Shown here: in pieces, positions 30,720-51,453 of the stretch
Numbering within the stretch: position 1 is the first letter of the stretch
Layout: every line of letters starts with the position of its first letter
Assembly: GCF_014195655.1 (NCBI RefSeq)
Contig: NZ_JACICD010000003.1
Location: 186,001 to 250,000 of the forward strand
DNA: 64,000 nt
Reading direction: 5' to 3'
DNA from: Ancylobacter tetraedralis
GTDB taxonomy: Bacteria; Pseudomonadota; Alphaproteobacteria; Rhizobiales; Xanthobacteraceae
The notes under the pieces: generated by a model
What the model saw: only the letters and a program-made list of their open reading frames with translations
The model's database searches: none
What the model was told of the DNA's origin: nothing
Translations under genes and position numbers: made by a program

Positions 30720-30742
30720 CCTTGAAGTGTGGAACTCTCCCG

Positions 30743-35653: not shown

Positions 35654-36937
35654 TCAGCGGGCTCCCAGCCGCGACAGCACCGCGTCGGCCGCCCGCACCA
35701 CGCCCGGATCGGCCTTCATCTGTGCCGAGATCGCGGCGAGGCGGTCCCGCAGGTCGCGATCCTTCAGCAGCGCGTCGATCGTGGCGCGCAGCCCGTCGGG
35801 CGACCAGTCCGAGCGGTGCATGCTGCGCCCGGTGCCGGTATCCTGCACGCGCCGGGCATTGTCGTGCCCGTCCCAGCAATAGGCCATCACCAGCGATGGC
35901 ACGCCGTGGAACAGCGCCTCGCAGAAGGAGTTGTTGCCGCCGTGATGGATGAACAGCGCCGACTGGGCGACGACGGAGGGCTGGGGAAACCAGCTGCCGA
36001 GAAAGACATTGTCCGGCACTTCGCGATATTCATCGAGAAACCCGCCGACATTCACGAAGAAGCGGGCGGGAATGGTCGCGAAGACCGCGATCATGCGCCG
36101 GATCTGGTCGGTGTCGATCGCGCCCAGGCTGCCGAAGCTCATATAGACCAGCGGCCCCTCATTGGCCGGCAGGGCCGGGGGATCGAACGGCACCTCGTCG
36201 CGCACGCAGCCTTCGAGAAAGGTGAAGCGATCCGCCGGCAGCGTCTCGGCGCGTCGATAGCGCACGGCGGAAGGTGCCAGCAGCAGGTTGAGCCAGTCGG
36301 AACATTCCAGAAACTGCCCCTGGGGCAGCGGCCGCAATCCGCGCGCGCGGCGGAACGCGTTGTAGCGATGATGCGCGGGCCGCAGCGCCGCGCTCGCCGC
36401 CTTCTCCCAGAGGGCACGGCCGGCGACGTCATCGGGGCCAAGGCCGGAGAGATAGGGCGGCACGAGCGCATCCGGTATCTCGGTCTCGGCGCAAGAGACC
36501 ACCCGCGCCCAGGGCCGGCCGCAGCGCAGGATGGCCGGGAACATGATGACATTGTCCAGCAGGATGGCGTCCGGCTGGATCTGCGCCAGCAGCGCCTCCA
36601 GAGAATCGTCGACCGCTATGACGGTATCGACGATCGCCTCCCAGGTGGGGGCGACATAGGCCTCCAGCTGCGCCTGCGGCGTCAGGTCGAAATGGGCGAG
36701 ATGCGTGTTGACGAAGTTCTGCCAGTAGGCCTCGCCGCGCGCCTGCACCGCTCCCGCCTCGGGCTGGAGGTGATATTCCCGGAAGCCATATTCGGCGAAG
36801 ACGCCGGTAAAGCCGGGATGGCACAGGAAGACCGGCTCCGCGCCCCGCGCCGCCAACTCGCGCGCGATGCCGACGCAGTTGAGCGCCGCGCCGAAGCTCG
36901 CTTCGGGGAAGAGCGCAATGACGGGAGGGCGCGTCAC
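35654..36937 (-). CDS. GT1-type UDP-sugar glycosyltransferase (first paralogue)
   Basis: A 427-residue GT-B enzyme of the UGT/macrolide glycosyltransferase type. The acceptor half starts IALFPEASFGAALNCVGIARELAARG, and the donor half has GPLVYMSFGSLG and the sugar-nucleotide motif LGSWFPQPSVVAQSALFIHHGGNNSFCEAL (HHGGNNSF near residue 331) with CWDGHDNARR. It is clearly related to the protein encoded at 41982-43256 over its full length. Its ATG overlaps the GntR gene by 4 bases, so the two form one leftward unit divergent from the large operon. Acceptor and sugar are unknown. Confidence 0.85.
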   Translation of the reverse strand: MTRPPVIALFPEASFGAALNCVGIARELAARGAEPVFLCHPGFTGVFAEYGFREYHLQPEAGAVQARGEAYWQNFVNTHLAHFDLTPQAQLEAYVAPTWEAIVDTVIAVDDSLEALLAQIQPDAILLDNVIMFPAILRCGRPWARVVSCAETEIPDALVPPYLSGLGPDDVAGRALWEKAASAALRPAHHRYNAFRRARGLRPLPQGQFLECSDWLNLLLAPSAVRYRRAETLPADRFTFLEGCVRDEVPFDPPALPANEGPLVYMSFGSLGAIDTDQIRRMIAVFATIPARFFVNVGGFLDEYREVPDNVFLGSWFPQPSVVAQSALFIHHGGNNSFCEALFHGVPSLVMAYCWDGHDNARRVQDTGTGRSMHRSDWSPDGLRATIDALLKDRDLRDRLAAISAQMKADPGVVRAADAVLSRLGAR

Positions 36938-37893
36938 GAAGCGGGTCCTTTGCGCGCGGGCGCGGGTTGCGCGCCCCGGAGCAGCGCCGACATGCCGCGC
37001 CCGGCGGTTTCGGGCCGGCGAATTCCGGAGCGACGCAGATGCAGCACCATTTGATCGGCCGCAAGCTCCAACTGGGTGCGCTCCAGGCTATCGAGAATGT
37101 CGAGATGCTCCTCCATCGCCTGACGCTGGCGAAACGGCGGCGGGGCGGCTTCCTTCTGCGCCATGCGGCGCAGCCGGTGATGGGCGAGCAGCGCGCCCTG
37201 CACGAATCGGTTGGCGGAGCCTTCCGCGATCATCACGTGGAAATCGATGTCGAGGCGCTGGAACCCCGCCGCCGTCAGCCGCCCGTCCGGCAGCAGCTGG
37301 AAGGCGCGCATCTGCGCGCGCAGGGCGCTGGCGCGGGTGGGATCGAGCGCAAATCCCGGCGTGAGGATGGCCTGCGGCTCCAGCGTCAGCCGGAAGGCGA
37401 AACTCTCGGCGATCGCCGGCGGGGTGTCGAGCAGCGGCTGAAAGGCCCAGGCGCTGCCCGGAAGCTGGGAAACAATGCCGTCGCGCGACAGTATTTTTAG
37501 CGCATTCAGTACTTCAACGCGGGAGGCGGAATAGCGCCGCGCCAGCGCGCTGACGGACTGCACGTCGGCGATCCGCCGCGCCGCGCGATCGGCCAGGATG
37601 CGGGTGAACAGGCCCTGGTCGCGATCCGCCGCGGCGATGCTCGCGTCCGAGAGCCCCTCCTGCGCGCTGCGGGCGAGAAAATAGCCCTGCTCTTCCTTCC
37701 AGATCAGAATATTGTTCTTTTCCAATATTTTGAAGGCCGCGCGGATCGGCGTCCGGGAAACGCCGCAGGCTTCGGCGATGGCCTGTTCCGGCATGTGCTC
37801 GCCCGCCTTCAGGCCGCGATCGAGCGCCAGCGCCACGATCTGCTGCGCCAGCGACTGATGGTTGTGGCGCGCGGCGCGGCGGCGTTCGGCCAT
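36934..37893 (-). CDS. GntR-family regulator with two winged-helix segments and FCD-like domain
   Basis: A 319-residue regulator. The usual N-terminal GntR winged helix spans about residues 12-73 (EQAIAEACGVSRTPIRAAFKILEKNNILI). A second winged-helix-like stretch follows at about 95-152 (VSALARRYSASRVEVLNALKILSRDGIVSQLPG), which is more than a standard FadR-type protein has. Residues 160-290 look like the helical FCD effector domain. It diverges from the second Pot-type operon and probably controls both directions. The start at 37893 gives the expected N-terminus. Confidence 0.8.
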   Translation of the reverse strand: MAERRRAARHNHQSLAQQIVALALDRGLKAGEHMPEQAIAEACGVSRTPIRAAFKILEKNNILIWKEEQGYFLARSAQEGLSDASIAAADRDQGLFTRILADRAARRIADVQSVSALARRYSASRVEVLNALKILSRDGIVSQLPGSAWAFQPLLDTPPAIAESFAFRLTLEPQAILTPGFALDPTRASALRAQMRAFQLLPDGRLTAAGFQRLDIDFHVMIAEGSANRFVQGALLAHHRLRRMAQKEAAPPPFRQRQAMEEHLDILDSLERTQLELAADQMVLHLRRSGIRRPETAGRGMSALLRGAQPAPARKGPAS

Positions 37894-37954
37894 GGATTTC
37901 CCCCGGAAGGCCCCTGTGGGGCGGGCAAGACAGGCAAAGAACCGTGAATACAGT

Positions 37955-37979
37955 TTGACGTATTTTTCCGCTTATACGT
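37955..37979. promoter_or_regulatory. Inverted repeat and -35-like element between GntR gene and second Pot operon
   Basis: ACGTAT (37958-37963) and ATACGT (37974-37979) form a dyad with a 10-base spacer. It overlaps TTGACG (37955-37960), which could be a -35 element for the rightward operon. A GntR dimer site is the natural reading, given its place in the only gap between the divergent genes. Confidence 0.5.
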
Positions 37980-38055
37980 ACTCTTGTCGTCAGCGGTCAT
38001 CAAGAACCGCTCCTTCCGACACACCGCCTCCGGCGGGGGACAACAGGAGTTTGCA

Positions 38056-39102
38056 ATGGTGGGGATTTCCTGCCGCGCGGCGGTCATTGCGGGTGTGGCG
38101 CTGAGCCTCACCGCGTTTTCCGCCAGCGCCGATCCGCTGGTGATTTCGAACTGGGACGGCTATCTCGCCCCCGACGCGATCAAGAAGTTCAACGAGGCCA
38201 GCGGCAACAGCGCCGAGCTGGTGCTGCACGCCACCAACGAAGAAATCATGGGCAAGCTCATCGCCGCCAAGGGCAAGGGCTATGACGTGGTCTTCGTCTC
38301 CTCGCCCTTCGCCGAGGTGCTGCACAATCTCGGCCTCGCCGAGACGCTCGATCATTCCAAGATCCCCAATCTCGCCAATCTCTACCCGGAAGCAACCGCG
38401 CTCGCCCATGACAAGGGCAACACCTTTTCCGTGCCCTATACCTGGGGCACCACGGGGCTGTGCTACCGCTCGGACCTGACCCCCGCGCCGACCTCGTGGA
38501 ACGACCTGCTGAAGCCGACGGATGCGCTGAAGGGCAAGACCACGATGCTGGCGACCGACCGCTGGCTGCTGGCGGCGGGCTTCCTGGCCGAGGGTTATTC
38601 GGTCAACGAGACCGACAAGGCGAAGCTGCAGCAGACGCGCGACCTGCTGATCGCCGCCAAGAAGACCCTGCTCGCCTATGACGACACGACCTTCTATTCC
38701 AAGCTGGTCTCCGGCGAGGCGCAGTTGGTGCAGGCGTGGGATGGCTGGTGCAATTACGGCATCACCGAAAATCCGCAGATCAAGTACGTGATCCCCAAGG
38801 AGGGGTCGGATCTGTGGGTCGACACGATGGTGATCCTCAAGTCCTCCGAGCACAAGGACGCCGCCTACGCCTTCGTCAACACGATGCTCGACGGCGCCAA
38901 CCACCGCTGGGCGGCGGAGAACATTCTCTACAAGGTGCCGAACAAGGCCGCGATGGACGGGCTCGATCCGAAGCTGCTGGAAAAGTACCCGAACATGACG
39001 ATGACGCCGGCCGAGCTTCTCACGCATGAGCAGCTTCGCGATGTCGGCGCCGCGCAGCGCGATTATTCGCGCACGGTCTCCGAGATCAAGGCGTCGAACT
39101 GA
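38056..39102 (+). CDS. ABC transporter substrate-binding protein, PotD/PotF type (second system)
   Basis: Exported binding protein of 348 residues. A Sec signal (VIAGVALSLTAFSASA, cleavage near residue 24) precedes DPLVISNWDGYLAPDAIKKF, typical of polyamine-binding proteins, with WGTTGLCYRSD and VQAWDGWCNYG later. The ATG at 38056 has AGGAG at good distance. It begins the large rightward operon, so its ligand, probably a cationic amine, is the likely substrate of the downstream enzymes. A strong hairpin lies between it and the permease genes. Confidence 0.9.
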   Translation: MVGISCRAAVIAGVALSLTAFSASADPLVISNWDGYLAPDAIKKFNEASGNSAELVLHATNEEIMGKLIAAKGKGYDVVFVSSPFAEVLHNLGLAETLDHSKIPNLANLYPEATALAHDKGNTFSVPYTWGTTGLCYRSDLTPAPTSWNDLLKPTDALKGKTTMLATDRWLLAAGFLAEGYSVNETDKAKLQQTRDLLIAAKKTLLAYDDTTFYSKLVSGEAQLVQAWDGWCNYGITENPQIKYVIPKEGSDLWVDTMVILKSSEHKDAAYAFVNTMLDGANHRWAAENILYKVPNKAAMDGLDPKLLEKYPNMTMTPAELLTHEQLRDVGAAQRDYSRTVSEIKASN

Positions 39103-39144
39103 CCGTCGAGGTCCGTCTGCCCGTCAACCATCGAGCACCTGTGA

Positions 39145-39175
39145 GCCGATCCGATTGCGACGCGACCGGATCGGC
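39145..39175 (+). other. Intercistronic stem-loop between binding-protein and permease genes
   Basis: GCCGATCCG (39145-39153) and CGGATCGGC (39167-39175) form a perfect 9-base stem with a 13-base loop in the 127-base gap. Such hairpins often protect the binding-protein mRNA or partly stop transcription, giving more binding protein than permease. Confidence 0.55.
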
Positions 39176-39210
39176 GCGGGCTCCAGCGCCGGATCACCGA
39201 GCGGTGACGT

Positions 39211-39236
39211 ATCGCCATGCAAGATCGCCATGCAAG
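39211..39236 (+). repeat. 13-base tandem duplication at the second potB-like start
   Basis: ATCGCCATGCAAG occurs twice (39211-39223, 39224-39236). Both copies contain an ATG, but since 13 is not a multiple of three only the second ATG (39230) is in frame with the permease. The out-of-frame first ATG could interfere with initiation. Confidence 0.85.
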
Positions 39237-40096
39237 ACCGTAGATCCCTCGTGCTGGTCGCGCCCGCCTTTGCGTGGCTGACCGCCTTCATGGTCGTGCC
39301 CTGCCTCTTGATCCTCGCGCTGGCCTTCTTCCGGCGCGGGCTCTATGGCGGCATCGACTATGAATTCACCTTCGAGAATTTCGCGATGGTGCTGGATCCG
39401 CTCTACGCGCGGATCTTCCTGAAATCCGCCTGGATTGCCGGGCTCGCCGCCCTCATCGCGGCGGTGGTCGGCTATGCCGCCGCCTATGCGATCGCGAGCA
39501 TGCCGCGCCATCGCCAGCCGGCGCTGCTGTTTTTCGCCATCCTGCCGTTCTGGTCGAATTATCTCGTGCGCACCTATGCGTGGATCGTGCTGCTGAACCG
39601 CGAAGGGCTGATTGTCGGCATCGCCCGTGCGCTCGGCTTTTCCGGCGAGATGCCGCAGATGCTCTACACCGAGGGCGCGGTGGTGCTGGGGCTGGTCTAT
39701 AATTACCTGCCCTTCGTCATTCTCGCCGCCTACGCCCCGCTCTCGCGGCTCAACCCGGAGATTTCGGAGGCCTCGCGCGATCTCGGCGCCGGGCGCTGGA
39801 CGACGTTCCGACGGGTGGTCCTGCCGATCACGCTGCCCGGCGTCGCCACCGGCTTCGTCTTCGTGTTCGTGCTGTCGATCGGCAATTTCGTGACGCCGGC
39901 GCTGCTGGGCGGTGGCCAGTTCCAGATGATCGGCAACCTGGTCTACGACCAGTTTCTCTCCGCCAATGACTGGCCGTTCGGTTCCGCGCTGTCGATGGTG
40001 CTGATCGCCGTCATGCTGGTGCTGCTCACGGCGCAGACCTTCGCCAACGAGCGCGCCTCCACCGGCCGCCAGAGCGCGGAGCCGGTCGATGGCTGA
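39230..40096 (+). CDS. ABC transporter permease, PotB type (second system)
   Basis: Inner-membrane permease of 288 residues. Typical segments are LPFWSNYLVRTYAWIVLLNREG, the EAA-like loop NPEISEASRDLGAGRWTTFRRVVLPITLPG and IGNFVTPALLGGGQFQMIGNLVYDQF. The ATG at 39230 is the second of two duplicated ATGs and the only in-frame one. It overlaps the next permease gene by 8 bases. Confidence 0.9.
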   Translation: MQDRRSLVLVAPAFAWLTAFMVVPCLLILALAFFRRGLYGGIDYEFTFENFAMVLDPLYARIFLKSAWIAGLAALIAAVVGYAAAYAIASMPRHRQPALLFFAILPFWSNYLVRTYAWIVLLNREGLIVGIARALGFSGEMPQMLYTEGAVVLGLVYNYLPFVILAAYAPLSRLNPEISEASRDLGAGRWTTFRRVVLPITLPGVATGFVFVFVLSIGNFVTPALLGGGQFQMIGNLVYDQFLSANDWPFGSALSMVLIAVMLVLLTAQTFANERASTGRQSAEPVDG

Positions 40097-40880
40097 TCGT
40101 CTCAACATGCAGGTAATGCTGCTCATCCTCGGCCTCGTCTTCGCCTTTCTCTACCTGCCGATCTCCGTTCTGGTCGGGCTGTCCTTCAATGCCGGCGGCA
40201 TGCCCACCGCGTGGACCGGCTTTTCGCTGAAATGGTATGGCGCGCTGTTCGCCAACCGGGACATCCTGCGCGCCGCCGGCAACACGCTGATCGTCGGGCT
40301 GGTCTCCGCCGGCATCGCGACGATCCTGGGCACGCTGCTGGCGATCGGCATCGAGATCCGCCGGCGCAAGGGCCGCTTGCTGGAGACGCTGATCTTCGCG
40401 CCGATGGTCATTCCCGACATCGTGCTGGCGATCGCGCTGCTGAGCTTCTTCTCGCTGCTCGACGTGCGGCTGGGGCTGCACACCGTCATCCTGGCGCATG
40501 TGGTGTTCAACCTCGCCTTCGTCTGCGCGGTGGTGCGGGCGCGGCTCAAATCCTTCGACTGGTCGATCGTCGAGGCCTCGGCCGATCTCGGCGCCTCGAT
40601 GCTCACCACCCTGCGCCGCGTGGTGCTGCCGGCATTGGCGCCGGCCATCATCGCGGGAGGGCTGCTGGCCTTCACGCTGTCGGTGGACGAATTCATCATC
40701 GCCTTCTTCACCGCCGGGCCCGAGCGCGCCTCGATCACGCTGCCCATGCAGATCTACGCCATGATCCGCTTCGGCGTGACGCCCGAGATCAATGTGCTGG
40801 CGACGCTGGTGATCGGGTTTTCCCTCGTCACCCTGGCCCTGTCGCAGCGCCTCAACCGTGGAGGCCTGCCGGGCCAATGA
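40089..40880 (+). CDS. ABC transporter permease, PotC type (second system)
   Basis: Inner-membrane permease of 263 residues with the usual six helices. The family pattern includes IVEASADLGASMLTTLRRVVLPALAPAIIAGGL and SVDEFIIAFFTAGPERASITLPMQIYAMIRFGVTPEINV. It overlaps the PotB-like gene by 8 bases and the ATPase gene by 4. Confidence 0.9.
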   Translation: MADRLNMQVMLLILGLVFAFLYLPISVLVGLSFNAGGMPTAWTGFSLKWYGALFANRDILRAAGNTLIVGLVSAGIATILGTLLAIGIEIRRRKGRLLETLIFAPMVIPDIVLAIALLSFFSLLDVRLGLHTVILAHVVFNLAFVCAVVRARLKSFDWSIVEASADLGASMLTTLRRVVLPALAPAIIAGGLLAFTLSVDEFIIAFFTAGPERASITLPMQIYAMIRFGVTPEINVLATLVIGFSLVTLALSQRLNRGGLPGQ

Positions 40881-41932
40881 CCAGCTTGCTTTCCATTCGC
40901 CATGTCGAGAAGCATTTCGGCCGGGTGCGGGCCGTCAATGGCGTGTCCCTCGACATTCGAGAGAACGAGTTCTTCGCGCTTCTGGGGTCCTCCGGTAGCG
41001 GCAAGACCACGCTGCTGCGCATGCTCGCGGGATTCGAGACGCTCAGCGGCGGGCAGATCCTGCTCAACGGGCGGGACATTTCCAACGTGCCGCCCAATCA
41101 CCGCCCGGTGAACCTGATGTTCCAGTCCTATGCGCTGTTTCCGCATATGACGGTCGCGCAGAACATCGCCTACGGGCTGGAAATGGAGAAGCTGCCCCGG
41201 GCGGAAATCCGCGCACGGGTCGACGAGATCCTCGGCACCATCCAGCTCTCCGCGCTGGCGGCGCGCAAGCCCGAGCAATTGTCCGGCGGCCAGCGCCAGC
41301 GCGTCGCGCTGGCCCGCGCGCTGGTCAAGCGGCCGCAATTGCTGCTGCTCGACGAGCCGCTGGGCGCGCTCGACAAGAAGCTGCGCAGCGAGATGCAGCT
41401 GGAGCTGAAGCGGATCCAGCACCAGTTCGGCATCACTTTCATCATCGTGACGCATGATCAGGAGGAAGCGCTGGTCATGGCCGACCGCATCGCCATTCTC
41501 CAGCATGGCGAACTCGTGCAATGCGCCCCGCCGCGCGAGGTCTATGAACACCCGGCCACCCGTTTCGCCGCGGAATTCATCGGGGTGATGAACGTCTTCC
41601 CGGTGCAGCGCGACGGCATGCGGCTGACGGCGGCGGATGGCAGCCTCATCCATGCCTCGATCCCCGAGGGGCTGGGGGCGGAGATTGTCGCCGCGGTGCG
41701 GCCGGAGCGGCTGCGTCTCGATGCGGAGACTTGCGACAATCGGCTCTCGGGCCGGATCATCGCCACCGCCTATCACGGGCTCGACCTGCAGGTGCATGTC
41801 GCGACCCCCGCCATGGCGAAGCCCATGGTCTGCCGGGTGACGGCGGATGCCGCCGAGGCGCGCAATTTCCGGGCGGGCGACCTTCTCACCCTGGGCTGGA
41901 ACAGCGCCGACACGCGCCTCTTCGCCGCCTGA
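40877..41932 (+). CDS. ABC transporter ATP-binding protein, PotA type (second system)
   Basis: ATPase of 351 residues with Walker A GSSGSGKT (37-44), LMFQSYALFPHMTV, signature LSGGQRQRVALARAL, Walker B LLLDEPLGALD and a C-terminal TOBE region (VAAVRPERLRLD). It completes the importer and is followed after 49 bases by the glycosyltransferase, so import and modification are in one unit. Confidence 0.92.
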   Translation: MTSLLSIRHVEKHFGRVRAVNGVSLDIRENEFFALLGSSGSGKTTLLRMLAGFETLSGGQILLNGRDISNVPPNHRPVNLMFQSYALFPHMTVAQNIAYGLEMEKLPRAEIRARVDEILGTIQLSALAARKPEQLSGGQRQRVALARALVKRPQLLLLDEPLGALDKKLRSEMQLELKRIQHQFGITFIIVTHDQEEALVMADRIAILQHGELVQCAPPREVYEHPATRFAAEFIGVMNVFPVQRDGMRLTAADGSLIHASIPEGLGAEIVAAVRPERLRLDAETCDNRLSGRIIATAYHGLDLQVHVATPAMAKPMVCRVTADAAEARNFRAGDLLTLGWNSADTRLFAA

Positions 41933-41981
41933 ACACGATGACAAGGCCCGCAAAGGGCGATCCACCAGAGGTACCGAACAG

Positions 41982-43256
41982 ATGGAACAGAAGACCTTCG
42001 CCTTCTTCCCCGAAGCGGCCTTCGGCCCCGCCCTGAACTCCGTGGGCATCGCGCAGGCCATTACCGCGCTGGGGCACAAGGCGGTGTTCCTCTCCGATCC
42101 CGGCTTCGTCTCGGTCTATGAGGGCTATGGTTTCGAGGCCCATCCCGTGGCCCTGTCGGAGCCCATGCCGCCCGAGCAGATGGCGAAGTTCTGGGAGGAC
42201 TTCATCAACGGCCATATCCCGAACTTCTCGAAGAAGCCGATCGACCAGCTCGACAACTACGTGAAGGAGTGCTGGGAGGCGATCGTCGCCAGCGCCACAT
42301 GGGCGCAGAAGGACCTGCCGGGGGTGCTCGCGCGCATCAAGCCGGACGTGATCGCGGTCGACAACGTCATCCTGTTTCCGGCCATCAAGCAGTTCGGCGT
42401 GCCGTGGGTGCGCATCATCTCCTGCTCGGAGAACGAGATCGAGGACGAGGCGATCCCGCCGCACCTCTCCGGCATGGGCGAGAACGACCGGGAGGGCCAT
42501 GCCGCCTTCCGCGCGAAGTTCAACGATGTCATCCAGCCGATCCACGACGCCTTCAACGCCTTCCTCGCGGAGAATGGCGAAGAGCCGTACCCGCTCGGCC
42601 AGTTCTTCGAGGCTTCGCCGCATCTCAACCTGCTGCTCTATCCCGAGCAGGCGAAGTACCAGCGCGAGAAGCCGCTCGACCCCGCGCGCTTCCAGTATCT
42701 GGAAGGCTGCGTGCGCAAGGACGAGCCCTACACCGTACCGACCTTCGGCCGGAACAATGATGGACCGCTGCTCTACATCTCCTTCGGCTCGCTCGGCTCC
42801 GGCGACACCGAACTGCTGAAGCGACTGATCGCGCTGGTCGGCACGACGCGCTACCGCGCGCTGGTCAATGTCGGCGACTACATGGCGAGCTACACCGACG
42901 TGCCGGAGAACGTGGTGCTCGGCAGCTGGTTCCCGCAGCCCTCGGTGATCCCGCAGGTCGACGCGGTGATCCACCATGGTGGCAACAACTCCTTCACCGA
43001 GTGCCTCTATTTCGGCAAGCCGGCGATCATCATGCCCTATGTCTGGGACGGGCATGACAACGCGATGCGCGTCGAGGAAACCGGCCATGGCTTCCGCTCC
43101 GAGCGCTATGAGTGGAGCGACGCGGAGCTGATCGCCAAGATCGAGGCCTGCCTCACCGATCCCGCGATCGCGGCGAAGCTCAAGACCACTTCCGCCCACA
43201 TGCAGGCCTGCGAGGGGCCGAAAAAGGCCGCGCGCCTGCTCGCCTCACTGGTGTGA
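41982..43256 (+). CDS. GT1-type UDP-sugar glycosyltransferase (second paralogue)
   Basis: GT-B enzyme of 424 residues, related over its whole length to the minus-strand protein at 35654-36937 (shared FPEAxFGxALNxVGIA start, LDNVI/VDNVI, YLEGCVRxxxP, HHGGNNSF near residue 331, WDGHDNA). The donor half has the UGT-like nucleotide-sugar motif. It is cytoplasmic, with no signal or membrane helix. It follows the ABC genes and precedes cupins, a sugar kinase and oxidising enzymes, suggesting glycosylation of the imported compound or an intermediate. Acceptor is unknown. Confidence 0.87.
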   Translation: MEQKTFAFFPEAAFGPALNSVGIAQAITALGHKAVFLSDPGFVSVYEGYGFEAHPVALSEPMPPEQMAKFWEDFINGHIPNFSKKPIDQLDNYVKECWEAIVASATWAQKDLPGVLARIKPDVIAVDNVILFPAIKQFGVPWVRIISCSENEIEDEAIPPHLSGMGENDREGHAAFRAKFNDVIQPIHDAFNAFLAENGEEPYPLGQFFEASPHLNLLLYPEQAKYQREKPLDPARFQYLEGCVRKDEPYTVPTFGRNNDGPLLYISFGSLGSGDTELLKRLIALVGTTRYRALVNVGDYMASYTDVPENVVLGSWFPQPSVIPQVDAVIHHGGNNSFTECLYFGKPAIIMPYVWDGHDNAMRVEETGHGFRSERYEWSDAELIAKIEACLTDPAIAAKLKTTSAHMQACEGPKKAARLLASLV

Positions 43257-43261
43257 CCGAC

Positions 43262-43621
43262 ATGACAAACCTGACCAGTTCCGCGCCGCACATCCACGGC
43301 GCCACAACTTACGACGACCTGGCCGACTGGGGCGCGCAGCCCGACGCCATCGCGGGCGCCTCTCATTCCACCGGGCGGCTGCTGTTCAAGGGCCCCGGCA
43401 ATTCGCCGGAGACCGGCATCTGGGTGTGCACGCCCGGCCGCTGGAAGATCTGCGTGCCGCGCGACGAGTTCTGCCACTTCGTCGCGGGCCGCGCCCGCTA
43501 CACCGCCGTCACCGGCGAGGTGACGGAGGTCGAGGCCGGCACCTGCGTCGTCTTCCCCGCCGGCTATGAGGGCGAGGCCGAGGTGATCGAGACCATCCGC
43601 AACATCTACATGCTGGCCTGA
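43262..43621 (+). CDS. Small cupin-fold protein (Cupin_3/DUF861 type), copy 1
   Basis: A 119-residue single-domain cupin. The core is GIWVCTPGRWKICVPRDEFCHFVAGRARYT...GTCVVFPAGYEGEAEVIETIRNIYML, resembling the family related to ureidoglycine aminohydrolase and EutQ-like cupins. The E-x-C-H-F motif suggests a metal or ligand site, although it lacks the full HxH...E...H metal pattern. Five bases separate it from the glycosyltransferase gene. Role is unknown: lyase, isomerase or binding protein. Confidence 0.8.
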   Translation: MTNLTSSAPHIHGATTYDDLADWGAQPDAIAGASHSTGRLLFKGPGNSPETGIWVCTPGRWKICVPRDEFCHFVAGRARYTAVTGEVTEVEAGTCVVFPAGYEGEAEVIETIRNIYMLA

Positions 43622-43631
43622 GAGAAAACCC

Positions 43632-43976
43632 ATGAAAACGCCCGTGATGAAAAAGCCGCTCGAGATCACCGATGTGGTCGACTGGGGCATCATCCCGACC
43701 ATGATCGAGGGCCAGTCCCACGTGTCGGGGCAGGTGCTGCACAAGGGGCCGAACGGCCAGTCCGAATGCGGGCTGTGGATCTGCACGCCCGGCAAATGGG
43801 ACTGCCACGTTACCTCCGACGAGTTCTGCCACTTCCTGGAAGGGCGCTGCACCTATGTGCATGAGAGCGGCGACGTGATCGAGATCACCCCGGATACCGC
43901 CGCCTTCTTCCCGAAGGACTGGAAGGGCGTCTGCACGGTCCATGAGACCATCAAGAAGGTCTACATGATCCGATGA
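43632..43976 (+). CDS. Small cupin-fold protein (Cupin_3/DUF861 type), copy 2
   Basis: A 114-residue cupin related to the preceding gene product: GLWICTPGKWDCHVTSDEFCHFLEGRCTYVHESGDVIEITPDTAAFFPKDWKG ending VHETIKKVYMIR. The DEFCHFLEG motif is shared with copies 1 and 3. It may form a heteromer with copy 1. Its stop overlaps the kinase gene ATG by 4 bases. Function unknown. Confidence 0.8.
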   Translation: MKTPVMKKPLEITDVVDWGIIPTMIEGQSHVSGQVLHKGPNGQSECGLWICTPGKWDCHVTSDEFCHFLEGRCTYVHESGDVIEITPDTAAFFPKDWKGVCTVHETIKKVYMIR

Positions 43977-45022
43977 TGCCGGCCGTGACCTGCCGTCCTC
44001 GCCTCGATCCGCCGGGCGTCACCTTCCTCACCCGTCTCGGTCAGTCCGGCGTGCCGCTCGAGGCGCTGCCGGGCGATGCTTCGGCCCGCCGCTACCATCG
44101 GCTGGCCGGGGCCGGCCTGCTGCTGATGGAGGACCGCACCGATCCGCAGGGCTTCGCCTCCTATGTCCGCGTCGCGCGGCATCTGAACGGGCTCGGCCTG
44201 TCGGCGCCGCGCGTCGAGGCGACGGACCCGGTGCATGGCCTGGCGCTGATCGAGGATTGGGGCGACGCCACCTATGCGCGGCGCCTCCGTGAAGGCCGGC
44301 CGGAAGCGGAACTCTATGGCGTGGCGGTCGATGCGCTGGCGCATCTGCACCGCGCTCCCACTGGCACGGCGGTCGCGCAGCCGCGCTACGATCCCGCGAC
44401 ATGGCTGGATGAGCTGCGCCTGTTCGCCGACTGGTTCGCCCCGGCCATCGCCCCGGATCTGGACCGCGAGGGCTTCTCCGCGCGCTTCCTCGCGCTGTGG
44501 GACGCGGCGCTGCGTCCCGTCTCCGACCGGTTCGAGACGCTGGTGCTGCGCGATTTCCACGTCGACAACCTGATGGCGCTGGAGGATCGCGAGGGTGTGC
44601 GGCGCTGCGGCCTGCTGGATTTTCAGGACGCCGCCCTGGGCCCGCGCGAATACGACCTCGTCTCGCTGCTGCAGGATGCCCGGCGCGATCTGGCGCCGGG
44701 GCTGGAGGAGGCCATGCTGGCCCGCTACATCGCCGCGTTCCCGGAACAGCCGGGGGGCGGGGAGGCCATCCGCGCGCGCTATCACCTCGTCGGCGCGCAG
44801 CGTCACGCGCGCATCGCGGGCGTGTTCGTCCGCCTCTGCCAGCGCGACGGCAAGGCGCATTACCTGAAATGGCTGCCCCGCGTTCTCGGGCAGCTGGAGA
44901 CGGCGCTGGCCGCCGCCGGGCTCACCGCCATCGCCGACCTGCTTGCCGTGGAACTGCCCGACTGGCGCGCGCGGGGCGAGGCGATGGCCCGGCGTCTCGG
45001 CGCCGCCGGCACGCTCGATTGA
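43973..45022 (+). CDS. AmgK-like sugar-1-kinase (aminoglycoside phosphotransferase fold)
   Basis: A 349-residue kinase of the COG3178 group. GDASARRYHRL (about residues 34-44) is the typical N-terminal nucleotide-binding loop, LRDFHVDNLM holds the catalytic Asp, and GLLDFQDAALGPREYDLVSLLQD the metal-binding Asp. Characterised relatives (AmgK) phosphorylate the anomeric hydroxyl of N-acetylmuramate or N-acetylglucosamine. In this operon a GlmU-type uridylyltransferase is also encoded, so a C1-phosphate to UDP-sugar route is likely. Substrate is inferred, not shown. Confidence 0.82.
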   Translation: MMPAVTCRPRLDPPGVTFLTRLGQSGVPLEALPGDASARRYHRLAGAGLLLMEDRTDPQGFASYVRVARHLNGLGLSAPRVEATDPVHGLALIEDWGDATYARRLREGRPEAELYGVAVDALAHLHRAPTGTAVAQPRYDPATWLDELRLFADWFAPAIAPDLDREGFSARFLALWDAALRPVSDRFETLVLRDFHVDNLMALEDREGVRRCGLLDFQDAALGPREYDLVSLLQDARRDLAPGLEEAMLARYIAAFPEQPGGGEAIRARYHLVGAQRHARIAGVFVRLCQRDGKAHYLKWLPRVLGQLETALAAAGLTAIADLLAVELPDWRARGEAMARRLGAAGTLD

Positions 45023-45033
45023 AGGAAGACCGC

Positions 45034-46563
45034 ATGTCCAGCTCCGCCACCTCCGATCTCGCCAGCCCCCGCTACTATCTTGCCCCTGGCCTGCGGCCGT
45101 CCGCCGGGGGCACGCAGCCGGTCCTCGATCCCGCGACGCTGGAGGAGGTCGGCCGGCGTGCCGAGGTAACGCCGGACGAAATCGCGGAGGTACTGGCGCG
45201 GGTGAATGCGGCGCAGAAGCTGTGGAACCGCACCGACGCCAAGAGCCGGGCGCGGGTGTTGCACCAGCTGGCCAATCGCATCGAGAGTGCCGATTTCACC
45301 GACTGCGCCATCCTGATGAGCCGCGAAATGGGCAAGCCTTATCCCGAGGCCATCGGCGAACTCGCCAATGTCGCACCGATTTTCCGCTACTATGCCGAGA
45401 TGGCGCGCGACGATGCCGGCAAGATCGCCGGCACCACGCAGATCGGCTCGACGCAATATGCCCGCTACGAGGCGCTGGGCGTCTCCGTGCACATCATGCC
45501 GTTCAACTTCCCCATCCTCCTGATGTGCTGGACGGTGGCGGCCTCGCTCGCCGCCGGCAATGGCTGCATCGTCAAGCCGGCCGAGGCGACCACGCTGTGC
45601 ACGCTGGACTTCATGAAGGTGTTCGACGAACTGCCGGAAGGGTTGGTGGCCGGCCTGCCGGGCGGCGTCGGGACGGGCCGGGCGCTGGTGGAGAGTGAGC
45701 GCACCCATGCGGTCGCTTTCACCGGCTCCGTCGCTGCCGGCCGTGCGGTGGCGATGGCGGCGGCGGCCCGGATGAAGCCGGCGGTGATCGAGGCCGGCGG
45801 CTCCGACCCGATGATCATCGCGGCCTCGGCGCCGCTCGATGTCGCGGCCGCGGGCGCGGTGACGGGCGCCTTCCACATGACGGGCCAAGTCTGTACCTCC
45901 ACCGAGCGGATCTACGCGGTCGACGCCATCCACGACGATTTCATCCGCGCGTTTGTCGCCCGCACGAAACAGCTGCGCATCGGCAATGGGCTGGAGAAGA
46001 ACGAGATCGGCCCGCTGGTCTCGCAAGCCGCGCGCGACAAGGTGATGCGACTTGTCGCCGATGCGGTGGCCAAGGGCGCGCGGGTGGAATGCGGCGGGCG
46101 CATTCCCGAGGGGCTGGAGACCGGCTGGTTCTACGAGCCGACCATTCTCACCGGCTGCACACCGGACATGGAGATCCTGCACGAGGAGACCTTCGGCCCG
46201 GTGGTCGCGGTCTGCCGCGTGGCGGATTTCGATGCTGCGGTGGCGGCGGCCAATGACAGCCCGTTCGGCCTCGGCGCCTCGATCTTCACGACGTCGCTGG
46301 AAGAGGCCATCGAGGCCTCCGAGCGGCTGGAGGCCGGCATGGTCTGGGTGAACAACCCGATGATCGACAATGACGCCTTGCCCTTCGGCGGCTGGAAGGC
46401 CTCCGGCATGGGCCGCGAGCTGGGCCGGCAGGGTCTGGATGCCTTCCGGCGCACCAAGATGGTGGTGATGGACCACAAGCCGCAGGTTCAGGGCTGGTGG
46501 TATCCCTATCCCGATGAGTGGTTCCTCGACCGCGCGGGAAGCGGCGGCCGCAAGCATGTCTGA
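45034..46563 (+). CDS. NAD(P)-dependent aldehyde dehydrogenase (first)
   Basis: A 509-residue enzyme of the ALDH superfamily. The catalytic Cys is C287 (GQVCTSTERIY) and the general-base Glu E253 (VIEAGGSDPMI). The coenzyme region is SVHIMPFNFPILLMCWTVAASLAAGN and AFTGSVAAGRAV. EAGGSDP in place of the usual ELGGKSP, and a C-terminal extension rich in Trp/Tyr, set it apart from the second ALDH. The ATG has GAAGGAAG upstream. Placed after the sugar kinase, it should oxidise an aldehyde made by the operon oxidase. Confidence 0.9.
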   Translation: MSSSATSDLASPRYYLAPGLRPSAGGTQPVLDPATLEEVGRRAEVTPDEIAEVLARVNAAQKLWNRTDAKSRARVLHQLANRIESADFTDCAILMSREMGKPYPEAIGELANVAPIFRYYAEMARDDAGKIAGTTQIGSTQYARYEALGVSVHIMPFNFPILLMCWTVAASLAAGNGCIVKPAEATTLCTLDFMKVFDELPEGLVAGLPGGVGTGRALVESERTHAVAFTGSVAAGRAVAMAAAARMKPAVIEAGGSDPMIIAASAPLDVAAAGAVTGAFHMTGQVCTSTERIYAVDAIHDDFIRAFVARTKQLRIGNGLEKNEIGPLVSQAARDKVMRLVADAVAKGARVECGGRIPEGLETGWFYEPTILTGCTPDMEILHEETFGPVVAVCRVADFDAAVAAANDSPFGLGASIFTTSLEEAIEASERLEAGMVWVNNPMIDNDALPFGGWKASGMGRELGRQGLDAFRRTKMVVMDHKPQVQGWWYPYPDEWFLDRAGSGGRKHV

Positions 46564-46576
46564 GAGGGCACGCGCC

Positions 46577-48064
46577 ATGCACAGAACCCAGCTTTACATT
46601 GACGGCGCCTTCACCGCTCCGGAGGCTGGCGGCACCTTTCCCGCCATCGATCCCGCCACCGAGCAGCCCTTTGCCGAGGTCGCGGCCGGGCAGGGGGCCG
46701 ATATCGACCGCGCCGTGCGCGCGGCCCGGCGGGCTTTCGACAGCGGCGTGTGGTCCGGGCTCTCCGGCACCGTGCGCGCCGGGCACCTCCGCCGGATCGC
46801 GCAGGGGCTGCGCGACCGGCTGGCCGAGATCGCGGCGCTGGAGGTGCGCGACAATGGCAAGCCGCTTCCCGAAGCCGAATGGGATGTGGGCGATGCGGCC
46901 TTCACCTTCGATTATTACGCCGATCTTGCCGAGGCCGAGGACAGCCGGGCGGAGGAGGAGGTCGATGTCGGCGATGCGCGCTTCCGCGCCACCATCCGTC
47001 GCGAGCCGCTGGGCGTGGTGGGCGCCATCACACCGTGGAACTACCCGCTGCTGATGGCGGTGTGGAAAGTGGCCCCCGCGCTGGCGGCGGGCTGCACCCT
47101 CGTGCTGAAGCCCTCCGAAATCTGCTCCATGTCCTGCGAAGTGCTGGCCCAGATCATCCATGCCGCCGGCCTACCGCCCGGCGTGTTCAATCTGGTGACG
47201 GGTACCGGCCCCGAGGCGGGACAGCCGCTGGCCGATCATCCGCTCTGCGACAAGCTCGCCTTCACCGGCTCGGTGGCGACGGGGCGCAAGGTGATGAACG
47301 CGGCGGCTTCGGGCATCCGTACCGTGGCGCTGGAACTGGGCGGCAAGTCCCCCTTCCTCGTCTTCGCCGATTGCGACATCGAGAAAGCCGTCGAGTGGAT
47401 CCTGTTCGGCATCTTCTGGAACAAGGGCGAGGTGTGCTCCGCCACGTCCCGCGTACTGGTGGAGCGCAGCCTCTATCCGCGCCTGCTGGAGCGGCTCAGG
47501 CAAGCCGCGGAGGCCATCACCATCGGCGCCGGAAACGAACCGGGGGTGAAGCTCGGGCCCATCGTCTCCAGGGGGCAGTACGAGAAGATCCTCGCCGCCA
47601 TCGCCTCCGGCACGGCGTCCGGCGCCCGGCTGGTCTCGGGCGGCGAGCGGCCCGCCGGCCTCCCGACGGGCTATTTCCTCAAGCCGACCATCTTCGCCGA
47701 TGTGCCTGTTGAGGCCAGCATCTGGCGCGAGGAGATTTTCGGGCCGGTCGTCTGCGTCAACCCGTTCGACACCGAGGAGGAGGCGCTTCGCCTCGCCAAT
47801 GACAGCGCGTTCGGCCTCGCCGGCGCGGTCATGTCGGACGATCTGGAGCGTTGCGAGCGGGTGGCGTGCCGGCTGCGCGCGGGCATCGTGTGGATCAACT
47901 GCTCGCAGCCGACCTTCGTCCAGCTGCCCTGGGGCGGCTTCAAGACCTCCGGCATCGGCCGCGAACTGGGCCGCGCCGGCTTCGAGGCCTATTTCGAGAC
48001 CAAGCAGATCACCCGCTTCGATCCGGCCGAAAGCTGGGGCTGGTACCTCGCGGGTGGACAATGA
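46577..48064 (+). CDS. NAD(P)-dependent aldehyde dehydrogenase (second, betaine-aldehyde type)
   Basis: A 495-residue ALDH. Catalytic C287 lies in NKGEVCSATSRVLV and E253 in LELGGKSPFLVFADCD; VVGAITPWNYPLLMAVWKVAPALAAGC is typical of betaine- and aminoaldehyde dehydrogenases. The ATG at 46577 has AGAGGG nine bases upstream; ATG at 46556 would overlap the preceding gene. Its stop overlaps the uridylyltransferase gene by 4 bases. Two ALDHs in one operon imply two aldehydes, or oxidation at both ends of a diamine. Confidence 0.9.
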   Translation: MHRTQLYIDGAFTAPEAGGTFPAIDPATEQPFAEVAAGQGADIDRAVRAARRAFDSGVWSGLSGTVRAGHLRRIAQGLRDRLAEIAALEVRDNGKPLPEAEWDVGDAAFTFDYYADLAEAEDSRAEEEVDVGDARFRATIRREPLGVVGAITPWNYPLLMAVWKVAPALAAGCTLVLKPSEICSMSCEVLAQIIHAAGLPPGVFNLVTGTGPEAGQPLADHPLCDKLAFTGSVATGRKVMNAAASGIRTVALELGGKSPFLVFADCDIEKAVEWILFGIFWNKGEVCSATSRVLVERSLYPRLLERLRQAAEAITIGAGNEPGVKLGPIVSRGQYEKILAAIASGTASGARLVSGGERPAGLPTGYFLKPTIFADVPVEASIWREEIFGPVVCVNPFDTEEEALRLANDSAFGLAGAVMSDDLERCERVACRLRAGIVWINCSQPTFVQLPWGGFKTSGIGRELGRAGFEAYFETKQITRFDPAESWGWYLAGGQ

Positions 48065-48819
48065 ATACTCGCGCCATGAATGCCCCCCCGACGAGCCCGA
48101 TCGCCGCCATCGTGCTGGCCGCCGGCAAGGGCAGCCGGATGGGGTCGGACCTGCACAAGGTGCTGCATCCGCTGAAAGGAAGGCCGATGCTGGGGCATCT
48201 GCTCGACAGCCTCGCCCGCGTCGATGCCGCGCGCATCGTGCTGGTGGTCGGCGCCGGGCGCGAGCAGATCGAGCGCGCCTATCCCGACATACCGAAGGTC
48301 GTGCAGCGCGAACAGCTGGGCACGGCCGATGCGGTGCGCGCGGCCGAGGCGGAACTGGGTGATTTCCCCGGCACGGTGCTCATCCTCTATGGCGACGTGC
48401 CGCTGATCGCGCCCGACACGATGCGCAGGCTCTGCGCGGCACTGGCGGGGGATGTGGTGCTCGCCGTGCTGGGCTTCCGCCCCGCTGACACCCGCGCCTA
48501 TGGGCGGCTCGTCACCGCGCCGGATGGCAGCCTCGCGCGCATCGTCGAGCACGCGGACGCCGGCGAGGAGGAGCGGCGGATCGGCCTGTGCAATTCCGGC
48601 GTCATGGCGGTGCGGGGCGATGTCCTGTTCCCGCTGCTGGCGCGCGTGGGCTGCGCCAATGCCAAGGGGGAATATTACCTCACCGATATCGTGGCGCTGG
48701 CGCGGGCGGACGGGCATCGCGTCGCCATCGTCGAAGCGGGCGAACTGGAGGTGAGCGGAATCAATTCGCGCGAGGAACTCGCCGCGCTCGAAGCCCGTCT
48801 GGCGGACGCCGTGCCATGA
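48061..48819 (+). CDS. Free-standing GlmU-type uridylyltransferase domain
   Basis: A 252-residue nucleotidyltransferase matching the N-terminal half of GlmU: VLAAGKGSRMGSDLHKVLHPLKG, REQLGTADAVRAAE, LYGDVPLI, LCNSGVMAV, NAKGEYYLTDIVALA and EVSGINSREELAALE. GlmU joins UTP and N-acetylglucosamine-1-phosphate to UDP-GlcNAc. The left-handed beta-helix acetyltransferase half is missing entirely, so only the UDP-sugar step remains. Together with the AmgK-like kinase it would turn a free amino sugar into UDP-sugar for the glycosyltransferases. Overlaps both neighbours by 4 bases. Confidence 0.87.
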   Translation: MNTRAMNAPPTSPIAAIVLAAGKGSRMGSDLHKVLHPLKGRPMLGHLLDSLARVDAARIVLVVGAGREQIERAYPDIPKVVQREQLGTADAVRAAEAELGDFPGTVLILYGDVPLIAPDTMRRLCAALAGDVVLAVLGFRPADTRAYGRLVTAPDGSLARIVEHADAGEEERRIGLCNSGVMAVRGDVLFPLLARVGCANAKGEYYLTDIVALARADGHRVAIVEAGELEVSGINSREELAALEARLADAVP

Positions 48820-50207
48820 GCGAACGTGGCTCTTCGCTGGCGGGCGTCGCCCTGCGCCCCTACTGGTTCGACACCGTCGCGCCCGAGCCGGCCCGCCCGG
48901 CACTGGCGGGCGACATCCGCGTCGATCTCGCCATTGTCGGCGGCGGCTTCACCGGCCTGTGGACGGCCCTGCAGGCGCGCAGGCGCGACCCGCAGGCCCG
49001 TATCGCGCTGGTGGAAGCCGACCGAACCGGCAATGCCGCCTCCGGCCGCAATGGCGGCTTCTGCGCGCCGTCCATCTCGCACGGCCTCGGCAATGCGCTG
49101 CGCCGCTGGCCGCAGGAGGCGGAGGCGCTGGTGCGGCTCGGCCGCGAAAATCTCGACGGTTTCGCGCAGGACGTGGCCGAGTACGGCCTTTCCATCGAGT
49201 TCGAGCGACCCGGCAAACTTACCCTCGCGGCCACGCCCTGGCAGGCCGAGGGGCTGGAGGCCCTCGCGGTCCATCACCGCCGCTTCGGCATCGCCAGCGA
49301 GCTTCTGACGGGCGCGGCGCTGGCGGAAAAGCTCGACAGCCCGGTCTACGGCACCGGCCTCTTCGAGCCCAATTACGCGCTGGTGAACCCGGCGAAAACC
49401 GTGGCGGAACTGCGCCGCGTGGTGCTTTCGCTGGGTGTCGAGATCCACGAGCAGACCCCGGTGACGGCGCTGCGGCAGGCGGGTGCGGGCGTTGAGCTCA
49501 TCACGCCGGGCGGGGTGGTGCGGGCCGCGCGGGCGGTGCTGGCGACCAATGCGGCGGTGCCGCTGCTACGGCGCCTGAAGCCGGCGGTCATTCCCATCTA
49601 CGACTACGCCATCATGACCCGCCCGCTCGACGCCGACGAACTGGCCGCCATCGGCTGGACCGGGCGCCATTCGGTGGCCGATAGCGGCAACCAGTTCCAT
49701 TACATCCGCAAGACCGCCGATAACCGCATCCTGTGGGCCGGTTATGATGCCGTCTATCATTTCGGCTCGCGCCGCGACGCTGCCCTGCTGGACCGGACGG
49801 AGAGCTATGAGCGGCTCGCGGGCCATTTCCGCCGGGCGCTGCCCCCGCTCGCCCATGTGCCGTTCACCCATGCCTGGGGCGGCATCATCGACACCTCGGC
49901 GCGGACCACCTTCTTCGCCGGGCTCGCCCTGGGGGGGCGGCTCGCCTACGCGATGGGCTTCACCGGGCAGGGCGTCTCCGCCAGCCGCTTCGCCGCGCGG
50001 ACGATGCTCGACCTGCTGGCCGGGGAGGAGACCGAGCGTACCCGGCTCGCCATGCTGCGCACGCGGCCGTTTCCCTTCCCGCCCGAGCCGCTGCGCTGGC
50101 TCGGCATACGCTGGGCGCAGGCCGGGCTGGCCAGCGAGGACCGCACCGGACGTCGCTCGCGATTCAACCGGCTGCTCGATGCCTTCGGCGTCGGCTTCGA
50201 TTCATAG
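48816..50207 (+). CDS. FAD-dependent amine oxidoreductase (DAO family, PuuB-like)
   Basis: A 463-residue flavoprotein. The dinucleotide motif is LAIVGGGFTGLWTALQARRR (39-58), followed by ASGRNGGFCAPS, which is typical of gamma-glutamylputrescine oxidase and relatives, and the C-terminal ALGGRLAYAMGFTGQGVSASRFAA. Relatives oxidise secondary or primary amines to aldehydes with release of ammonia or amine. Expected role: oxidation of the imported, possibly glycosylated amine, feeding the two ALDHs. Overlap with the uridylyltransferase gene is 4 bases. Confidence 0.87.
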   Translation: MSERGSSLAGVALRPYWFDTVAPEPARPALAGDIRVDLAIVGGGFTGLWTALQARRRDPQARIALVEADRTGNAASGRNGGFCAPSISHGLGNALRRWPQEAEALVRLGRENLDGFAQDVAEYGLSIEFERPGKLTLAATPWQAEGLEALAVHHRRFGIASELLTGAALAEKLDSPVYGTGLFEPNYALVNPAKTVAELRRVVLSLGVEIHEQTPVTALRQAGAGVELITPGGVVRAARAVLATNAAVPLLRRLKPAVIPIYDYAIMTRPLDADELAAIGWTGRHSVADSGNQFHYIRKTADNRILWAGYDAVYHFGSRRDAALLDRTESYERLAGHFRRALPPLAHVPFTHAWGGIIDTSARTTFFAGLALGGRLAYAMGFTGQGVSASRFAARTMLDLLAGEETERTRLAMLRTRPFPFPPEPLRWLGIRWAQAGLASEDRTGRRSRFNRLLDAFGVGFDS

Positions 50208-50219
50208 GAGGTGCCCGCC

Positions 50220-50588
50220 ATGGGAGAGCTCACAATGTCCCCCCGCAATGTCATCGCCTTCGATCCTGACGCCACGCCAGCCCGCGAGATCCTCACCGAT
50301 GACCCGGCCGTGGTCGACACGCCGTTCCGTGCCGAAAGCTGGCGTCATTTCACCCATGCCGAGAAGGGCGCGCTGGCCGGCATCTGGCAGGCGGGGCCGC
50401 ATCTGGAGCGCGTGGACTGCGATTATGACGAGATGTGTCACCTGCTCGAAGGCGAGGTGCGCCTGACCGATGCCGAGGGCCATGCCCGCATCTTCGGGCC
50501 GGGCGACAGCTTCATAGTGGCGCGCGGCTTCAAGGGGACGTGGGAGAACCTGTCTTACGTGCGCAAGGTGTACTTCATCCTGAGCTGA
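50220..50588 (+). CDS. Small cupin-fold protein (Cupin_3/DUF861 type), copy 3
   Basis: A 122-residue cupin that ends the operon. It shares the DE-x-CH-x-LEG motif with copies 1 and 2 (YDEMCHLLEGEVRLT) and ends YVRKVYFIL, but has the longer N-terminus common in DUF861 proteins (SWRHFTHAEKGALAGIWQAG). The ATG at 50220 has a perfect AGGAGG eight bases upstream. Related cupins are often found beside PuuB-like oxidases and ALDHs; the chemical role is unknown. Confidence 0.8.
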   Translation: MGELTMSPRNVIAFDPDATPAREILTDDPAVVDTPFRAESWRHFTHAEKGALAGIWQAGPHLERVDCDYDEMCHLLEGEVRLTDAEGHARIFGPGDSFIVARGFKGTWENLSYVRKVYFILS

Positions 50589-50603: not shown

Positions 50604-50651
50604 CGTGAACCGCCATGGCCAGCGGCCTCGCCGAGGCGATGGCGGCTCACG
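50604..50651. terminator. Bidirectional terminator-like hairpin
   Basis: CGTGAACCGCCAT (50604-50616) pairs with ATGGCGGCTCACG (50639-50651) with one mismatch, and inner GCCTCG/CGAGGC can extend the structure. It lies between the convergent operon end and the TetR gene and overlaps the TetR stop. Confidence 0.6.
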
Positions 50652-51339: not shown

Positions 51340-51372
51340 TCTGTCCTCGCCTTGTTTCACGTTGCCCGCCGG

Positions 51373-51401
51373 TTGACCCGGCTTCAAGGAAATATTAATT
51401 G
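51373..51401 (+). promoter_or_regulatory. Candidate promoter of the RND operon
   Basis: TTGACC (51373-51378) and TAATTG (51396-51401) are separated by 17 bases, a sigma-70-like arrangement. The -10 abuts the TetR-type dyad at 51401-51419, which would block RNA polymerase. Confidence 0.45.
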
Positions 51402-51419: not shown

Positions 51420-51453
51420 TATAACACGCATCCTCTGTTCGCGACCGAAGCTC

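Follow-up and report, generated by a model that had tools for sequence, protein, structure and literature searches.

A locus in Ancylobacter tetraedralis brings together a spermidine/putrescine-type transporter, two glycosyltransferases, cupins, aldehyde dehydrogenases, a flavin oxidase, a sugar kinase and a uridylyltransferase domain. It lies in a 64,000-nucleotide stretch (the window; positions 186001-250000 of NZ_JACICD010000003.1, contig C3) of the 5.03-Mb genome. This gene set is best read as a route of amine catabolism that uses a transient glycosyl tag and in which dedicated re-activation of the sugar is optional. A small amine would be imported and degraded while tagged, for part of the route, with a sugar that the glycosyltransferase GTb (and its relative GTa) takes from a uridine diphosphate (UDP)-sugar, a proposal that we hold tentatively, at slightly less than an even chance. 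The most likely donor is UDP-N-acetylglucosamine (UDP-GlcNAc). Co-occurrence, gene order and the catalytic motifs of the kinase and uridylyltransferase are observed, and from these we infer the steps of the pathway. A preliminary description, made from the window's sequence, had proposed sugar-protected amine catabolism with built-in sugar recycling; as a whole this interpretation is partly supported, and the observation is broader than that description knew.

All the gene families it had named at 35654-50588 are present, as confirmed by family scans and, for PotB, PotC and PotA, by open reading frames (ORFs) and conserved order. The genes form two divergent, closely packed units that part at 37893/38056. 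The left unit contains GTa and a GntR/FCD regulator, and the right unit runs PotD, PotB, PotC, PotA, GTb, cup1, cup2, kinase, ald1, ald2, uridylyltransferase, DAO-family oxidase and cup3. No gap in the right unit exceeds the 127 bases between potD and potB, and the intergenic spacing from GTb to cup3 is between -4 and +27 bases. The kinase (kin), uridylyltransferase (nt) and oxidase (fad) genes each overlap the preceding gene by 4 bases, placing them inside the right unit.

35654-36937, minus strand: GTa, GT1-type glycosyltransferase (matches EryCIII-like_C and UDPGT; 45% identical to GTb)
36934-37893, minus strand: GntR/FCD transcription regulator (family scan)
38056-39102, plus strand: PotD-like binding protein (family scan)
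39230-40096, plus strand: PotB-like permease (ORF and gene order; no family scan)
40089-40880, plus strand: PotC-like permease (ORF and gene order; no family scan)
40877-41932, plus strand: PotA-like ATPase (ORF and gene order; no family scan)
41982-43256, plus strand: GTb, GT1-type glycosyltransferase (matches EryCIII-like_C and UDPGT)
43262-43621, plus strand: cup1, EutQ-like Cupin_3 protein (family scan)
43632-43976, plus strand: cup2, EutQ-like Cupin_3 protein (family scan)
43973-45022, plus strand: kin, AmgK-like sugar-1-kinase of the APH family (best NCBIfam model AmgK)
45034-46563, plus strand: ald1, core aldehyde dehydrogenase (aldehyde dehydrogenase models, all below cut-off)
46577-48064, plus strand: ald2, second, accessory aldehyde dehydrogenase (aldehyde dehydrogenase models, all below cut-off)
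48061-48819, plus strand: nt, GlmU-type uridylyltransferase domain alone (276 bits, cut-off 505)
48816-50207, plus strand: fad, DAO-family flavin adenine dinucleotide (FAD) oxidase (DAO match)
50235-50588, plus strand: cup3, third, accessory Cupin_3 protein (family scan)

Conservation and distribution of the locus

The genes belong to one locus, as the preliminary description supposed, because their order is conserved in dozens of genomes, which excludes a chance assembly. A contig scan found at least 566 GTb relatives, and the best 80 of these define the loci compared here; as they were fetched through GTb, counts in them are biased. Without an identity threshold, and with some of the stretches short, the transport genes occur in 76 (potA), 75 (potC), 74 (potB) and 73 (potD) of the 80 loci, and the other core genes in 77 (cup2), 73 (ald1), 71 (GTa), 71 (GntR) and 70 (cup1). 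Some relative of the DAO oxidase is found in 50, and the accessory genes are rarer (kinase 26, ald2 21, cup3 13, nt 10). With identity thresholds the core counts are nearly the same (potD 72, ald1 72, GTa 71, GntR 71, cup2 77, cup1 70). The core genes are each present in 70-77 of the 80 loci, with the glycosyltransferases and cupins among the most conserved. The most constant companion of GTb is cup2, which is also present in 10 of 10 more distant loci, three of which retain the transporter, ald1 and an oxidase relative together.

A control free of ascertainment through the glycosyltransferase used PotD as query over 385 genomes of the class (E ≤ 1e-60). Five other genomes have a close PotD and all five have GTb, four in the same stretch (L030, L031, L033 and L134) and one with PotDBC and GTb on separate contigs (G071). 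Loci with transporter, oxidase and aldehyde dehydrogenases but without glycosyl genes, which the preliminary description had named as telling against it, were not seen among these close PotD relatives. A second PotD in the A. tetraedralis genome itself (53% identity) lies beside other transporter genes and an aldehyde dehydrogenase, with no GTb adjoining.

Relatives of GTb, the window's own included, occur in 11 of 289 genomes of the class (E ≤ 1e-20) and 8 of 398 of the phylum (E ≤ 1e-60). In three genomes of a family from another class (f194) the same order is seen for GTa, GntR, PotDBCA, GTb, the two cupins, the kinase and ald1, and the oxidase is absent. Named relatives of the locus occur in Ancylobacter, Phaeobacter and Mesorhizobium, the closest among the matches listed being that of Ancylobacter amanitiformis (GTb 96% identical). 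Even within the genus the locus is accessory: only three of seven sampled genomes (own included) have the window-type oxidase at 82% identity or more. Existing annotation of the operon extends only to glycosyltransferase, cupin and spermidine/putrescine transporter. No account of such a locus was found in listings of open-licence literature; passages of PMC9870897 have a different subject.

Two variants were recorded alongside these counts. In loci of Rhizobium type and of Ancylobacter lacus (L081, L101, L106 and L116), the gene after ald1 is saccharopine-dehydrogenase-like and an aldehyde dehydrogenase adjoins GTa. On a Pseudomonas plasmid (L117, 9001-10001) a broken GTb relative lies in three aligned pieces among secretion-system genes.

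Sugar kinase, uridylyltransferase and their haloarchaeal counterpart

The kinase scores 209.4 bits against the NCBIfam AmgK model, below its cut-off of 500. Residues R193, D194, H196, D198 and N199, and D216 and D219, are each conserved in 95% or more of 27 aligned rows; we take these motifs (HxDxxN-type and DxxD) to be catalytic. The nt protein has 252 residues and covers positions 5-242 of the 453 of the best GlmU model, the acetyltransferase domain being absent. Alignment to five solved GlmU chains shows that it carries the residues of the GlmU motifs that presumably bind the nucleotide, the metal and GlcNAc-1-phosphate. It is distinct from the genome's own GlmU (48% identical), and a second AmgK-like gene lies elsewhere in the genome (46% identity over 63-321).

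Of 59 kinase sequences found, five that duplicated genes already included were dropped before we built a tree of 55 rows. A supported split (96/88) sets 29 of 30 kinases from glycosyltransferase loci, which are spread over several families, apart from other AmgK-like genes. L062 alone falls on the opposite side, as a long branch, and a single origin of the glycosyltransferase-locus kinases appears in only 8% of bootstrap trees. Kinase matches at E ≤ 1e-55 occur in 28 of 398 genomes, own included. The three strongest of the others (E < 1e-82) are those of the three f194 genomes, with the gene inside their GTb locus, and the other 24 matches range from 8e-70 to 9e-56. Of the eight genomes with GTb in the phylum sample, four (the window's own and the three of f194) have this kinase; the match in G037 is on a different contig and on the housekeeping side of the tree.

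Among the 80 loci, counted with identity thresholds (at least 50% for a window-type oxidase), nt is nested within the kinase loci: all 10 nt genes accompany a kinase and none occurs without one (raw Fisher p = 3e-6), and 22 of the 26 kinase loci also have the window-type oxidase. Relatedness was assessed on a GTb tree of 72 rows, whose four supported independent pairs are too few for a sign test to reach significance. The orthology of the kinase is stronger evidence than the co-occurrence counts. Kinase loci without nt could be served by the housekeeping GlmU, which would favour GlcNAc as the sugar.

Two haloarchaeal plasmids, one from Natrialba magadii and one from Natronorubrum aibiense, have genes for a glycosyltransferase, cupin, aldehyde dehydrogenase, ROK protein and phosphomutase, in that order. 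An FAD oxidoreductase and an aminotransferase lie near both cores. In Natrialba a solute-binding protein is also nearby, and the plasmid further encodes a member of the glutamine synthetase family and an amidotransferase; in Natronorubrum the neighbours include transporter genes of spermidine/putrescine type. In family scans, all below cut-off, the ROK protein is nearest to glucokinases and the mutase to archaeal GlmM. The pair, as predicted from these similarities, is a different route to a sugar-1-phosphate beside the same core, and it is the best single support for sugar re-activation.

The known recycling of peptidoglycan sugars, whose AmgK/MurU branch is described in PMC13046382, likewise pairs an anomeric sugar kinase with a uridylyltransferase (MurU or GlmU). 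The locus differs in that its kinase forms a separate clade, nt is of GlmU rather than MurU type, and both are set in a catabolic unit. The preliminary claim that kinase and uridylyltransferase re-activate the sugar stands in part: the catalytic motifs, the linkage to the glycosyltransferase and the haloarchaeal pair agree with it, and the two genes are accessory (26 and 10 of 80 loci), so that a dedicated recycling of the sugar would be an optional feature of the locus and not its essence.

Glycosyltransferases, binding protein, cupins and oxidase

GTb has a confidently predicted structure (predicted local distance difference test score, 92), and its closest solved relative is the spider-mite enzyme UGT203A2 (7lvy; E = 1.5e-52). 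Template modelling (TM) scores, by query length, are 0.87-0.88 to UGT203A2 and 0.78-0.84 to UGT202A2, and the GT-B fold and UDP-sugar donor motif of GT1 enzymes are both present. The locus enzymes share fold and donor-site motif with the mite enzymes and differ from them in their operon setting and at two positions. Where alignment places the FGH motif of 7lvy, whose histidine we take to be that of the His-Asp dyad, GTb has Pro in 79 of 79 sequences and GTa has Ala in 60 and Ser in 8 of 69 (one unread). At the position of the donor glutamine, all 80 GTb and all 70 GTa sequences have Gly. Two actinobacterial cousins (38% identity) also have Pro at the histidine position but retain the donor Gln. 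In plant UGTs this Gln is a sign of UDP-glucose use (PMC11213884); therefore the donor of GTa and GTb may be other than UDP-glucose.

PotD retains Trp33, Tyr36, Trp228, Trp254 and Asp256, each conserved in 95% or more of 78 rows. At the positions aligned with Asp168 and Glu171 of Escherichia coli PotD, which with Asp257 are the carboxylates for the amine ends, it has Thr and Trp; the Asp257 position is kept. With this second pair of carboxylates missing, the substrate is more probably a one-ended amine, such as a monoamine or an amino-alcohol, than spermidine, and a polyamine as acceptor is not supported.

The nearest solved chain to the cupins is 3bcw (TM 0.88), whose title states no function. 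The seven best-ranked solved chains, all DUF861 or EutQ proteins, share the fold at low identity (16-24%). Motif 1 of metal cupins comprises HxH and further metal ligands; it is incomplete here, with HVT in cup2 and no His pair in cup1, and a role for the cupins as classical metal hydrolases is no more than possible. Their resemblance to PpnP, presumably a nucleoside phosphorylase, is weak (TM 0.57-0.63 by query length). Separately, cup1, cup2, cup3 and their relatives have an E-x-C motif (E64 and C66) and W49 invariant in 42 of 42 aligned rows; that they do so while lacking a metal His pair points tentatively to an unusual site.

The oxidase, described as PuuB-like in the preliminary description, does belong to the DAO family, but among NCBIfam models it scores best with the aminophosphonate oxidoreductase TIGR03329 (241 of 632.8 bits) and no PuuB model matched. 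A search of PDB sequences gave no match at E ≤ 1e-8. FAD oxidases lie near the core in at least three sequence types (that of the window, that of Mesorhizobium, which is DAO by Pfam, and the f39 type, about 29% identical to the window's), and this recurrence supports an amine substrate; 30 of the 80 loci have no oxidase within reach. Searched among 149 genomes of the family, the window-type oxidase matched in eight at E ≤ 1e-60, own included. One (G408, 82%) lies within a whole glycosyltransferase locus and one (G372, 90%) in a 4.4-kb stretch that also holds ald2, nt and cup3; around the five weaker matches (34-38%) no GTb was seen, in stretches of 10.6-20 kb for four of them and of 4.3 kb for the fifth.

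The Puu pathway shares with the locus an importer, a DAO-family FAD oxidase, an aldehyde dehydrogenase and the idea of a protected amine; the locus differs in its two glycosyltransferases, cupins, sugar kinase and uridylyltransferase. Within the window, neither a glutamine-synthetase-like (PuuA-type) query (E ≤ 1e-5) nor a PuuD-like query (the haloarchaeal amidotransferase) found a match. The proposal that a sugar simply replaces gamma-glutamate is rejected in that form, as 27 of the 80 loci have a glutamine-synthetase-like ligase as well as GTb. All but one of these ligase loci (L102) also have GTa, and 23 of the 27 are titled Mesorhizobium. Kinase and ligase never occur in the same locus (0 of 80), which is not evidence of exclusion because the ligase loci are mostly Mesorhizobium and there are only four supported independent pairs.

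Other genes surround the locus. The region 30665-35610 (plus strand) holds an MGH1-like glycoside hydrolase gene and, after it, the gene of a large protein that matches no Pfam family (E ≤ 1e-8). This region was considered as the source of a sugar-releasing enzyme and rejected: a query of 32965-35610 only, not 30665-32965, matched one of 95 related stretches (L034), most of which extend about 3-4 kb past GTa. Directly after cup3, 50647-56737 holds a TetR regulator and HlyD-like and AcrB-like efflux genes. A second PotD-type transporter set at 17177-25737 (minus strand) lies beside a flavin aromatic monooxygenase-like gene nearest to the 3-hydroxybenzoate 6-monooxygenase model and a neighbour nearest to EutA; together they may form a cluster for the catabolism of aromatic compounds or N-heterocycles. 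Large subunits of molybdopterin dehydrogenases are encoded at 27006-30719 and 57503-60358 (plus strand), the first ORF also having cytochrome c domains.

Proposed pathway and alternatives

In the pathway that we propose, PotDBCA would import the amine and the glycosyltransferase would glycosylate it, perhaps on nitrogen; N-glycosylation would fit the missing histidine because no strong catalytic base is needed there. The DAO oxidase would then form an aldehyde and ald1 (or ald2) the acid, with the sugar guarding the amino-aldehyde from cyclising or reacting. Release of the sugar would be spontaneous or helped by a cupin. In the richest version the AmgK-like kinase and GlmU-type domain would rebuild the UDP-sugar; elsewhere this would fall to housekeeping enzymes or, in haloarchaea, to the ROK kinase and GlmM-like mutase.

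Several observations weigh against this pathway. Most of the 80 loci lack the kinase, nt or the window-type oxidase (present in 26, 10 and 25), and 20 have none of kinase, ligase, saccharopine-dehydrogenase-like gene and window-type oxidase (three of these stretches are shorter than 5 kb). GTb and a cupin also occur with no relatives of this transporter, aldehyde dehydrogenase or oxidase nearby (L024, L027 and L032). The four other GTb genomes of the phylum sample have no such kinase (E ≤ 1e-55) or only one on the housekeeping side, and the covariation of the kinase with nt or fad loses significance after correction for relatedness (four supported independent pairs, median p = 0.5). The haloarchaeal case consists of two related plasmids only. 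Mesorhizobium-type loci have both ligase and glycosyltransferases, and a glycosyltransferase without its catalytic histidine could be non-catalytic.

The transporter might instead import a ready-made sugar-amine conjugate (a glycosylamine, an Amadori compound or an opine-like molecule) that the DAO oxidase and aldehyde dehydrogenases oxidise, with the glycosyltransferase working in reverse or handling the freed sugar and the kinase and nt salvaging it. A DAO oxidase and sugar-phosphorylating genes at one locus fit this, as does the haloarchaeal ROK and GlmM-like pair, and a PotD without the second-amine residues may bind a ligand whose far end is polar and uncharged. This scheme is unlikely, as it leaves unexplained why GTb and cupins are retained where kinase, nt and window-type oxidase are missing. 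Detoxification, in which a hydroxyl or carboxyl of the substrate or of a toxic intermediate is glycosylated and kinase and nt only sustain the UDP-sugar supply, would suit a family that usually acts on small lipophilic acceptors and whose nearest solved members here are mite UGTs, one of them solved with flavonoids. We think it improbable, given that all 79 GTb sequences and 68 of the 69 from GTa (one unread) lack the canonical histidine and that a conserved importer in the same unit would be odd.

The idea that kinase and nt are unrelated hitch-hikers, such as extra copies for peptidoglycan sugar recycling, draws on their best models (AmgK and GlmU) and their absence from most loci. It seems quite improbable for a genome that already has a separate AmgK-like gene and GlmU, for kinases that form a separate clade across several families, for genes with 4-base overlaps with their neighbours, and for a core that has different sugar-phosphate genes beside it in haloarchaea. 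Kinases of the APH fold include amino-alcohol kinases, so the AmgK-like enzyme might phosphorylate an amine or amino-alcohol and nt make a nucleotide-activated amine, as in choline activation, for the GT-like protein. This is hardly credible for an nt that is GlmU-like and has the GlmU motif residues, a kinase whose best curated model is AmgK, and a haloarchaeal pair of sugar type.

Degradation of a sugar-tagged amine also has a more far-reaching form, which is possible but doubtful: a new catabolic strategy in which amines are degraded as sugar conjugates made by base-free, His-less glycosyltransferases, the sugar serving as a regenerated, cofactor-like tag, the cupins perhaps cutting the sugar-nitrogen bond (for which the structural link to PpnP is the sole hint), and bacteria and archaea having fitted two unrelated re-activation modules. 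If sugar tagging is correct, amine catabolism would have a protecting group other than gamma-glutamate, and a function would be gained both for an operon so far annotated only by its glycosyltransferase, cupin and transporter and for a GT1 branch without the usual catalytic histidine. The hypothesis is open to test in culturable bacteria such as Ancylobacter, Phaeobacter and Mesorhizobium.

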